From IMG/VR virus record IMGVR_UViG_3300030329_001774, positions 1 through 35,741 of that record: DNA of 35,741 nucleotides. The stretch is one strand, 5' to 3'. Positions 3,791-17,625 of this stretch are shown in pieces (position 1 is the first letter of the stretch; each line of letters starts with the position of its first letter). Both the position numbers and the translations under genes were made by a program. Below the pieces are notes generated by a model. The model made no database searches, was not told the DNA's origin, and saw only the letters and a program-made list of their open reading frames with translations. The stretch is from a virus.

Positions 3791-4000
3791 ATGTACACAT
3801 TATTTGATAGTTTCTTCGCACCTCCTACTATTGTAGTTGTGTCTGAAGAGAGGTTAAAAGCTGCTGAATTAAAAGCAAAAGAGAAACAACTTTTAGAAGT
3901 TAAGGTACGCATAGAGCAATTACAAGAGTTCTATGATAAACTTGATAAAGAAGTTAAAACTCTTCAACCTGCTAATGAGGAGGCAATAGCTAATGGCTAG
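3791..4000 (+). CDS. Coiled-coil small protein, 69 aa
   Basis: The ATG directly follows the RNA polymerase stop with no spacer, indicating coupled translation, and the 3' end overlaps the SSB start by 8 bases. After a hydrophobic N-terminal stretch (residues 3-17, Leu/Phe/Pro/Val), residues about 18-60 are a Lys/Glu/Leu-rich heptad-like helix, so a coiled coil is likely. The gene carries the ribosome site of the next gene (GAGGAGG at 3977-3983) in its last codons. No family is recognised; it might help oligomerise or tether a neighbour. Confidence 0.65.
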   Translation: MYTLFDSFFAPPTIVVVSEERLKAAELKAKEKQLLEVKVRIEQLQEFYDKLDKEVKTLQPANEEAIANG

Positions 4001-15573: not shown

Positions 15574-16650
15574 ATGGCAACAATTACTCTTCAAGACCAA
15601 CAAACTGATTGGAAGAGTTTCTGTGAATGGGTTACAAGCACCAACAACCGAATTTACGTCGGTTGGTTTGGTGTACTCATGATACCCGCACTTTTAACCG
15701 CAGCAACTTGTTTTATTATTGCCTTCATCGCTGCTCCCCCTGTGGACATTGATGGCATACGTGAACCAGTAGCAGGATCTCTTTTATATGGCAACAACAT
15801 CATCTCAGGAGCAGTGGTCCCCAGCTCCAACGCCATCGGATTGCACTTCTACCCAATCTGGGAAGCAGCAAACCTCGACGAATGGCTCTACAATGGTGGA
15901 CCTTATCAACTCATCGTATTCCATTTTCTCATCGGTATCTCAGCTTACATGGGACGCCAATGGGAACTTAGTTATAGACTAGGAATGCGACCATGGATAG
16001 CAGTAGCATATTCAGCACCAGTATCTGCAGCAGCAGCTGTGTTTCTCGTTTACCCGTTTGGGCAAGGGAGTTTCTCTGATGGTATGCCTCTTGGTATTTC
16101 TGGTACTTTTAACTTTATGTTCGTATTCCAAGCCGAACACAATATCCTTATGCATCCGTTCCATATGCTCGGTGTTGCAGGGGTATTTGGTGGAGCTTTA
16201 TTCGCTGCTATGCATGGAAGTCTCGTTACATCTTCACTCATTAAAGAGACTACTGATCTTGAGTCACAAAATTATGGCTACAAGTTTGGTCAAGAAGAAG
16301 AGACTTATAATATCGTTGCAGCTCATGGTTACTTCGGTAGATTAATTTTTCAATATGCTTCTTTTAATAATAGCCGTGCTTTACATTTTTTTCTCGGTGT
16401 TTGGCCCGTGGTTGGCATATGGCTCACAAGTATGGGTATTTGTACCATGGCTTTCAACCTTAACGGATTTAACTTTAACCAATCCATTGTTGATTCCAAC
16501 AGTAAAATCATTCCTACTTGGGCAGATGTTCTAAACAGAGCTAACCTAGGTATGGAAGTAATGCACGAAAGAAATGCACATAATTTTCCTCTTGATTTAG
16601 CATCTGCTGAATCTACTGAGGTTGCATTAACATCTCCTTCACTAGGATAA
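15574..16650 (+). CDS. psbA: Photosystem II reaction-centre protein D1
   Basis: Core subunit of photosystem II, damaged by light and replaced during infection so photosynthesis can power phage growth. 358 aa, full length. Numbering runs one less than plant D1: Tyr-Z is Y160, with manganese and P680 region residues D169, E188, H189 and H197, non-haem iron ligands H214 and H271, and the manganese-binding end H331, E332, H336, D341 and A343. A C-terminal extension of 15 residues after A343 would be removed by the host CtpA protease. Q129 corresponds to Gln130 of the D1:1 form rather than Glu. By eye the bases are more GC-rich than in the structural genes, as expected for a gene of host origin. 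Confidence 0.99.
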
Positions 16651-16651
16651 C

Positions 16652-16722
16652 AGCCACGTCCGTTCATCCTTAACGGGACGCATGCAATCTGACCACGGAA
16701 CGGGGGTCAGGTACTGAGGTAA
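16652..16722 (+). ncRNA. Putative glutamine riboswitch (Downstream-peptide / glutamine-II type)
   Basis: Directly after psbA and before a 33-residue ORF. A first hairpin pairs CGTCCGTT (16657-16664) with AACGGGACG (16672-16680, one bulged G), with CGTTCATCC at 16661-16669; a second pairs CTGACC (16689-16694) with GGTCAG (16705-16710), enclosing ACGGAACGGGGG. CGTTCAYCC followed by GGGACG and ACGGAACGG is what I remember of the glutamine-binding Downstream-peptide RNA, known upstream of short ORFs in marine Synechococcus, Prochlorococcus and their phages. The ribosome site TGAGGT (16715-16720) lies at its 3' edge, so ligand binding could control translation. Identified from memory of the consensus; not searched. 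Confidence 0.7.
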
Positions 16723-16725
16723 ATT

Positions 16726-16827
16726 ATGACTCAAGTAGAACTTCAAGCTCGACTCAAAGAGCAAAAAGATTTTAAAAGAGAATCTTTACTTATGTATCGT
16801 GGCGTAGAATACAAAAAAACTAAATAG
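16726..16827 (+). CDS. 33-residue peptide controlled by the riboswitch-like leader
   Basis: ATG 16726 has a ribosome site TGAGGT five bases upstream. The peptide has a helical Gln/Leu/Lys/Glu half and a C-terminal LLMYRGVEYKKTK. The Tyr-Arg-Gly-x-x-Tyr pattern recalls the short cyanobacterial DUF4278-type proteins, which typically carry a YRG-x-x-Y core, but similarity over so few residues is weak. Its place behind a putative glutamine sensor suggests a role in nitrogen response, perhaps an inhibitor of host nitrogen enzymes or a signalling peptide; that is inference from context only. Confidence 0.65.
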   Translation: MTQVELQARLKEQKDFKRESLLMYRGVEYKKTK

Positions 16828-16832
16828 TATTC

Positions 16833-16897
16833 TAATGTGCGTAACCACATTAAACTATTATGTCTCCCGTAGCGAAACTGCGGGAGTTCAATTTCTT
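16833..16897 (+). terminator. Two tandem hairpins, second resembling an intrinsic terminator
   Basis: The first hairpin pairs TAATGTG (16833-16839) with CACATTA (16846-16852), seven perfect pairs and a loop of six. The second pairs CTCCCGTAG (16864-16872) with CTGCGGGAG (16878-16886), nine pairs with one G-U and loop CGAAA, followed by TTCAATTTCTT. The U-run is imperfect, so this may be a terminator, an RNA-stabilising stem or a processing site between the peptide gene and the next ORF. Confidence 0.65.
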
Positions 16898-16908
16898 AAT
16901 AATTAACA

Positions 16909-17460
16909 ATGCCTTTTACTAACAACACAACTTACGGAACAACTGCCTATTCAACTGGTACGTTCTATGATCAAAGCATTATTGTAGCGAATGATGGATC
17001 TGATTTATCATCCAATACTTTAGCAACTCAATCTGCACTTACTATTAAGTTAGGTGGATATGAAAGAGTCATAGGTAAGTATATTTTATGGTATGATTCA
17101 ACTAATACTAACGAACTTAAATTTATCGTTAGAACTGTAGCTCAATCTGATGGAACAACAGCTGTAGCAAGTACTATTTATACACAGGCAATTGCTAGTG
17201 TACTAGAATCTACTTCAGCTGCTACTTGTGCAGCTACTGCATTAGAATCATCAGGTACATCTTCTACAGATGGAGCCGGTGTTGAGCTTGAAGTAGACAT
17301 TGGTGCTGATACTACTGGTACACTACTTACTGTAGACTTTAACGTTCTCAGTACAGCAGCTACTAAAGCAGACCTTGTCTTCGCAGCAAGAAATACAACT
17401 GGAACAGCAGCAGGTACACACCTCTTAGCTGGTTCACACGTATTATATAAGAAGTATTAA
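16909..17460 (+). CDS. Probable virion surface or decoration-type protein, 183 aa
   Basis: It starts at ATG 16909 after the tandem hairpins. The product is Thr/Ala/Ser-rich, nearly all predicted beta by eye, with no signal peptide and no membrane segment. A conserved-looking centre (GGYERVIGKYILWYDST and LELEVDIG-like strands) and the C-terminal HLLAGSHVLYKKY suggest a compact beta-sandwich. Low-charge, Thr-rich proteins beside the capsid gene are often capsid decorations or minor head proteins. I do not recognise a named family, so the role is inference from composition and place. Confidence 0.65.
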   Translation: MPFTNNTTYGTTAYSTGTFYDQSIIVANDGSDLSSNTLATQSALTIKLGGYERVIGKYILWYDSTNTNELKFIVRTVAQSDGTTAVASTIYTQAIASVLESTSAATCAATALESSGTSSTDGAGVELEVDIGADTTGTLLTVDFNVLSTAATKADLVFAARNTTGTAAGTHLLAGSHVLYKKY

Positions 17461-17625
17461 ATTACTTAGAAGAGAGACACCTCAGAGTCGGATCTCTCTT
17501 CACTTGGCTTTTGGCCTCTACGGAGATACCCTTAAGCTGTCTAGACGGTGGGATAGACCACAAATATATAACAAAAAAATTTTCCAAGCTTGGAGAGACT
17601 GTAAACATTATCTCTCTATATAATA
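17461..17625 (+). other. Structured leader before the major capsid gene
   Basis: 165 bases with no convincing ORF but much pairing. GAAGAGAGA (17469-17477) pairs perfectly with TCTCTCTTC (17493-17501) over nine bases with a 15-base loop. GTCTA and TAGAC around 17539-17558 can form a second stem that competes with GTGG/CCAC. A 12-base palindrome TCCAAGCTTGGA lies near 17583-17594, and GAGAGA pairs with TCTCTC just before the ATG. In T7 this position holds the strong gene 10 promoter and an RNase III site; an equivalent is plausible, but no promoter consensus could be established. Confidence 0.5.

Follow-up and report, generated by a model that had tools for sequence, protein, structure and literature searches.

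A Glutamine-II Aptamer Precedes a One-Repeat DUF4278-Like Micropeptide Gene in T7-Like Cyanophages

Introduction

The closest described relative of the locus analyzed here is the host glutamine-II riboswitch of marine picocyanobacteria (type 2, RF01704; Yfr6-type RNAs), which is recognized by the same covariance model and has a short DUF4278-type open reading frame (ORF) directly downstream. The type 2 riboswitch is activated by glutamine binding and precedes DUF4278 genes, with a Prochlorococcus copy reported to act as an ON switch (PMC6316151), and a ligand-stabilized pseudoknot has been proposed to free the ribosome site (PMC6698751). Yfr6, which is such a host RNA, has coding capacity for a 33-aa peptide and falls on nitrogen depletion (PMC1242208). 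An RNA antisense to Yfr6 rises early in phage infection of MED4, as does a second RNA, antisense to a gene resembling the Yfr6 peptide (PMC2518516). The glutamine-I riboswitch (type 1, glnA, RF01739) likewise senses glutamine and has a similar binding site (PMC6698751); before gifB, for example, it controls a protein with a DUF4278-like N-terminus (PMC6316151). In contrast to glutamine-II, it is a three-way junction without a pseudoknot.

Glutamine riboswitches have also been reported on marine phages, namely Melnitz (tmRNA) and T4-like cyanophages (PMC9004378, PMC9602691). These are described as glnA-like or merely named, unlike the RF01704 aptamer and DUF4278-like ORF in the present window, by which we mean the whole 35,741-nt stretch of viral DNA analyzed. 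A sequence-only reading of this DNA had taken the Downstream-peptide aptamer to be established in phages; however, a review calls it apparently restricted to marine picocyanobacteria (PMC6316151), and we found no description in the open-access literature of the RF01704 and DUF4278 pair in T7-like phages.

Results and Discussion

A Glutamine-II Aptamer behind psbA

The sole Rfam match in the 35.7 kb window is RF01704 (Glutamine-II, Downstream-peptide) at 16658-16712, scoring 51.6 bits against a curated cut-off of 33 bits (cmscan; E 7.2e-10 for the whole window; model positions 1-60 of 60). The glnA model (RF01739, Glutamine-I) gave no match in 16600-16950 at E up to 1, so that the cmscan comparison suggested by the sequence-only reading upholds the class it had named. 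The two hairpins, the GGGACG, the ribosome site and the short ORF starting at 16726 are all present as it described. Its interval, 16652-16827, takes in 5' flank, the Rfam match starting only at 16658. The features of the module, all on the plus strand, are as follows.

16653..16658, +, 5' flank strand GCCACG, predicted to pair with the YRG codons at 16798-16803 (MFE and centroid; covariation in relatives)
16658..16712, +, glutamine-II aptamer, whole RF01704 match (cmscan 51.6 bits; covariation over 71 phage relatives)
16661..16665, +, 5' strand of the pseudoknot, CGUUC (alignment to RF01704 and crystal-structure numbering, PMC6698751)
16667..16678, +, P1 hairpin, UCC 16667-16669 with GGA 16676-16678 (both sides of the first pair vary in relatives)
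16679..16681, +, linking strand CGC, crystal C17-G18-C19, expected ligand-site positions (invariant in 71 aptamers; numbering of PMC6698751)
16688..16711, +, P2 hairpin, UCUGAC 16688-16693 with GUCAGG 16706-16711 (six of six columns vary on both sides in relatives)
16698..16702, +, 3' strand of the pseudoknot, GAACG (invariant in 71 aptamers)
16716..16719, +, Shine-Dalgarno-like GAGG (sequence)
16726..16827, +, 33-aa one-repeat DUF4278-like micropeptide, MTQVELQARLKEQKDFKRESLLMYRGVEYKKTK, stop included (YRG core in 132 of the 135 relatives listed; hhalign)
16798..16803, +, CGTGGC, Arg-Gly codons of YRG, putative partner of the 5' flank (predicted fold and covariation)
16864..16886, +, hairpin resembling a terminator, behind the micropeptide gene (from a consensus scan only; 4 sites versus 0.6 expected in the region)

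The window aptamer contains P1, P2, the pseudoknot (16661-16665 joined to 16698-16702) and the long-range C19:G41 pair, together with the ligand-site residues C1:G40, G2:C39, G18 and C19:G41, which are invariant in the alignment (numbering of PMC6698751). Its characteristic motifs are CGTTCATCC (16661-16669), GGGACG (16675-16680) and ACGGAACGGGGG (16695-16706); the U before GGAACGGGG, near-invariant in relatives, is replaced here by C. Thirteen nucleotides separate the end of the aptamer from the start codon (ATG 16726). The plus-strand fold of 16651-16830 has a z of -3.3 relative to dinucleotide shuffles, none of 200 shuffles being as stable.

To assess covariation, 71 distinct aptamers from T7-like cyanophage loci were aligned, and pairing was tested at 15 pairs taken from the crystal structure (PMC6698751) and the Rfam alignment. 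Paired cells make up 98.6%, against 86.8% in shuffles and 22-62% with partners slid, and 109 cells are changed on both sides, against 26 in shuffles. The compensatory changes that had been anticipated for related phages are thus found, and they fall in P1 and P2; the pseudoknot is invariant, so covariation neither supports nor opposes it. Judging from these alignments, the phage aptamer is under structural selection, and the window element is by sequence a genuine riboswitch of known class.

A One-Repeat Relative of Host DUF4278 Proteins

A pattern scan of IMG/VR for unsplit aptamers, together with 14 T7-like phage genomes, yielded at least 134 further sites. Among the matches listed, window included, an ORF with a YRGxxY-type core (YRGVEY in the window) follows 132 of 135 phage or viral aptamers, and the remaining three aptamers are no more than 30 nt from the end of a contig. 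When the pattern matches by chance in unrelated bacteria, a YRG ORF mostly does not follow. The link between the aptamer and a conserved short ORF, suspected from the window, is borne out, and by sequence the pair is a recurrent cyanophage module. In about a dozen viral loci and in P-SSP7 the YRG ORF is in an alternative frame or has a GTG start. A tRNA or tmRNA was considered as the explanation of these loci and dismissed, the search at them returning only a tRNA-Gly in NATL1A-7 (L001). The P-SSP7 module (L008, about 3819-3872) has an unannotated ORF of 17 aa, MKVTFVYRGVAYTRVIG, located after the aptamer and before the capsid gene; as P-SSP7 carries the module, its role is testable in a cultured phage-host pair.

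Complete downstream peptides range from 13 to 60 aa, some having only 13-17 aa. The Y, R and G residues are retained through synonymous codons, Arg changing even from CGN to AGA. In marine Prochlorococcus and Synechococcus, in contrast, the aptamers are mostly followed by proteins of 55-58 aa that contain three such repeats, where the phage peptide of the window has one repeat in 33 aa. The commonest host protein behind the aptamer matches DUF4278 with 42.9 bits, in agreement with the report of host copies before DUF4278 proteins (PMC6316151).

The YRGxxY core is common to the window peptide, the small DUF4278 proteins of cyanobacteria (PF14105) and the N-terminal part of IF17. The window peptide itself, with its single repeat, does not match Pfam DUF4278 at the cut-off of 25.3 bits, which is exceeded by a 35-aa relative from L071 (29.9 bits) and by two of the tested two-repeat phage peptides. 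A profile of 22 phage peptides nevertheless aligns, in hhalign against the host alignment, with the final host repeat (94% probability, E 1.5e-7). Since the window peptide misses the Pfam cut-off and yet the phage profile aligns with that repeat, it is best called, on sequence grounds, a one-repeat DUF4278 relative and not a Pfam member. The short peptide of the sequence-only reading is therefore conserved, as expected, and is no orphan. The phage version, which keeps the YRG core in 13-33 residues, points to the minimal functional part of DUF4278.

The pairing of the aptamer with a YRG-core ORF is conserved across phages and marine picocyanobacteria. We consider it probable, at roughly 0.7, that the window carries a phage-encoded glutamine-II riboswitch controlling translation of a one-repeat DUF4278 micropeptide. 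If so, an RNA switch appears to give phages of the most abundant photosynthetic organisms a direct reading of glutamine, and their answer to it appears to be a miniature copy of a host nitrogen-response protein.

Genomic Setting and Distribution

In the window, psbA ends at 16650 on the plus strand, directly before the module. The aptamer is found in all 14 T7-like genomes of a first set, and in a second set of T7-like isolates RF01704 exceeds its cut-off in S-RIP2 and SS120-1. It scores below the cut-off in Syn5, P60, S-CBP2, S-CBP42, S-B28 and two freshwater phages of the second set, and also in S-SBP1, where the aptamer is split by a gene (see below). Several T7-like cyanophages thus do without the aptamer, which is not essential. 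In T7-like phages, and unlike in the hosts, the major capsid gene follows the module at a distance of about 0.2-1.4 kb. The position of psbA is more variable: among 92 T7-like loci it is within 400 nt upstream in 60, farther in 10 and absent over at least 1.2 kb in 12, the contig ending too early in 10. S-TIP28 (L006) and MedDCM-OCT-S28-C3 (L007) have the module and no psbA at that place. Because the module occurs there without psbA and tracks the capsid gene, its link with psbA is positional, and the functional tie to the light-energy gene that had been suggested is not supported.

These data also bear on the possibility that the element regulates a neighbor and not the peptide, serving either the psbA transcript as a 3' element or the capsid gene as a leader. 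In most T7-like loci it does lie directly behind psbA and always near the capsid gene, and the latter has its own covarying leader element (described below). However, the 132 YRG ORFs behind the 135 sites listed, the occurrence of the module in hosts and other phage types with other neighbors, the phages without psbA at the place and the terminator-like hairpin after the peptide gene all argue against such a role, which we regard as very unlikely. Control of the micropeptide itself is the reading that we retain.

Outside the T7-like phages, the T4-like P-SSM7 has a two-repeat peptide amid nrdAB, talC and hli genes. Loci of T4-like or unassigned phages resemble glutamine-I more than the window does, and many also have tandem glutamine aptamers. 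Back-to-back tandem aptamers, located in the 50 nt before the aptamer, were observed in L015, L023, L026, L031, L045, L076 and L102; the peptides of the tandem loci mostly have two YRG repeats, and the nearer aptamer scores about equally with RF01739 and RF01704. In S-CBP3 (L256, 2190-2321), the sequence in front of a YRG peptide, MSIQVTYTYRGVKYTKTVNR, contains CGTTCATC and GGAACG and is matched by neither RF01704 nor RF01739; it may be a glutamine aptamer that has diverged, or an aptamer for another ligand. Two contigs with glutamine aptamers also contain manA RNAs (RF01745; L079, 5366-5559, and L024, 1640-1839). Contigs with the phage-type aptamer and peptide were also found in MAGs titled Porticoccaceae, Dehalococcoidia and Rhodospirillaceae (L180, L172 and L204, respectively), the first also with the capsid-leader element; these are probably phage contigs binned wrongly.

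A Long-Range Helix and the Direction of Switching

In T7-like loci, the complementarity of the 18 nt before the aptamer to the ribosome site and ORF start exceeds that of shuffled and swapped flanks (-11.0 kcal/mol against -9.0 and -9.2 kcal/mol, respectively). In contrast, hosts and loci not assigned to T7-like phages gave no signal above shuffles. Where the flank ends in CGTC, its partner is the Arg-Gly codon pair of YRG, and the third base of the Gly codon covaries with flank position -8, mainly as G-C and A-U (0 of 2000 permutations). The observed helix length was reached by none of 1000 whole-flank permutations, a procedure that leaves relatedness in. Different combinations of flank and codons occur among similar peptides (window, L057, L063, L130). 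In other lineages the flank is complementary to the Shine-Dalgarno site (L039, L046, L104), or, as TTCGTAC, to a GTACGAA preceding the ATG, for example in L010 and L100. From this pattern, the 5' flank of many T7-like phages is able to pair with YRG codons in a covarying helix.

Such a helix raises the question of whether the ORF is an RNA scaffold only, with the YRG codons kept for pairing with the flank and no functional peptide made. The covariation of flank and codons would be expected in that case, and peptides of only 13-17 aa would fit as well. Nevertheless, Arg and Gly codons change synonymously with the residues kept, the CGN to AGA change included, the same core occurs in hosts and in loci outside the T7-like assignment whose flanks show no complementarity above shuffles, and the peptide aligns to host proteins of 55-58 aa. 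A pure scaffold is therefore the least probable of the alternatives considered here, and we continue to read the ORF as a micropeptide gene under riboswitch control.

The sequence-only reading had suggested that the loop ATCCTT can in part pair with the GAGG of the ribosome site. In the predicted ensemble, the Shine-Dalgarno site of the window pairs instead with its own early coding sequence (0.90), and the share of the P1 region in Shine-Dalgarno pairing, averaged over viral loci, is about 0.01. The P1 loop is, moreover, unconserved in the alignment of 71 aptamers. Unfavored in the ensembles and unconserved, an anti-Shine-Dalgarno sequence in the P1 loop was rejected. Nested folding of the free and the aptamer-constrained states predicts Shine-Dalgarno accessibilities of 0.35 and 0.40, respectively, in viral loci and of 0.10 and 0.12 in the window. 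With no clear change in accessibility, a nested-structure model does not account for the control and was also set aside.

With regard to direction, an OFF switch would have the bound aptamer, the flank or the P1 loop cover the ribosome site, and glutamine lower peptide synthesis. It would accord with the prediction that the Shine-Dalgarno site of the window is paired in both states, and with the flanks complementary to that site in L039, L046 and L104. Yet the relatives that have been tested are reported ON (PMC6316151), and the ATCCTT:GAGG pairing is neither favored nor conserved; we regard an OFF switch as unlikely. The ON direction is adopted on the basis of those relatives and of the proposal that the pseudoknot frees the ribosome site (PMC6698751). 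In the ON switch that we favor, the helix of flank and YRG codons, a trait of the phage copies and not above shuffles in those of hosts, would close the aptamer and the ribosome site into one domain; glutamine would stabilize the pseudoknot and turn translation on, by analogy with the Prochlorococcus copy. The peptide would then be made when nitrogen is plentiful in the infected cell. In the least certain step, it might mimic or compete with host DUF4278 proteins, adjusting nitrogen assimilation during capsid making, which fits the retention of the last host repeat in the phage copy.

Genes Nested inside Split Aptamers of Relatives

The most surprising part of this analysis is the presence, in relatives of the window, of genes nested inside the aptamer. 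The window's own aptamer is unsplit. In P-SSM7, S-SBP1 and some IMG/VR loci, P1 is interrupted, and in P-SSM7 and S-SBP1 by annotated small genes. Three long-gap pattern scans, together with the loci examined, gave at least 357 cyanophage glutamine aptamers split in P1, in at least 290 viral loci, all counts being lower bounds. Among the 357 listed, 342 hold an ORF of 50-75 aa; taking only the distinct ones listed, a nested ORF is found in 293 of 307, against 24.8 expected with the loop shuffled. The nested start codon lies at the 5' strand of P1, mostly 3-5 nt after CGTTCA. The stop codon lies at the 3' strand of P1, in the linker or just before the 3' pseudoknot strand; relative to the G that opens GACGCA, it is mostly 3 nt upstream or 6, 12 or 15 nt downstream. 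Covariation in P1 is seen at pairs three to five, and in most cases the A of the AUG could pair within P1. Directly downstream of the split aptamers listed is a YRG ORF in 257 cases, and in 74 a second aptamer within 25 nt. Where the stop is at +6, 40 of 42 split aptamers have either psbA upstream or, downstream, a T7-like capsid gene. The first gap class was found in 0 of 200 genomes of one host genus. Rfam probably misses split aptamers owing to the long insertion.

Examples of split aptamers are L264 (S-SBP1, 1938-2132), L268 (P-SSM7, 2772-2970), L017, L051, L075, L110, L272, L276 and L282. In S-SBP1, P1 is formed by CUAUG with CAUAG; in L017 it is formed by CUUAUGG with CCAUAAG, and the latter strand also holds the stop codon. 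L075 apparently has three aptamers, the middle one with a nested ORF. Six of seven representative nested proteins belong to PHROGs 504, 6471, 13397 or 628, all of unknown function, the seventh having only a weak PHROG match; none matches Pfam.

The anatomy described above, observed in 342 of the 357 split aptamers listed, suggests that folding of the aptamer and translation of the nested gene would be mutually exclusive. With the glutamine-bound aptamer excluding translation of the nested gene, glutamine would choose between the nested protein and the downstream YRG peptide. That the glutamine switch of many cyanophages is such a two-output device is a tentative proposal, to which we assign slightly less than an even chance. 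If it works in this way, placing a gene within an aptamer would be a new design for an RNA switch with two outputs; we found no description of an ORF inside a riboswitch aptamer in the open-access literature.

In 65 of the 123 aptamers listed without a preceding aptamer, a TATAAT-like hexamer is located upstream, its end 5-10 nt from CGTTCA; examples before first split aptamers are L272, L288 and L313. Given this hexamer, transcription may begin at the aptamer itself, which would place the nested AUG close to the 5' end and leave no space for a Shine-Dalgarno site.

A Leader Element of the Capsid Gene

Between the micropeptide and capsid genes of the window is a 183-aa ORF (16909-17460), with relatives in L001, L055, L057 and L084 and with neither a Pfam match over cut-off nor a PHROG match. 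Farther downstream, at 17504-17562, the major capsid gene is preceded by a 59-nt RNA element that has no Rfam match and recurs in T7-like cyanophage loci. In 37 distinct sequences of this element, 98.6% of cells are paired and 50 are changed on both sides, against 11.7 in shuffles. A model built from these sequences detects a single copy per locus in most of the T7-like loci searched, and only a weak one in a few. A repeated promoter was considered for this element and discarded, as a search allowing 3 mismatches still finds it only once in the window. The final 19 nt of the element are near-invariant.

Just before the capsid-leader element is a hairpin (about 17475-17503 in the window) that takes two forms among loci, one resembling a tRNA T-arm, GGGAGGTTCGATTCCTCCC, and the other with CACCTCAGAGTCGGA in the loop. 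In NATL1A-7 (L001, 4640-4710), a complete tRNA-Gly occupies the place of this hairpin.
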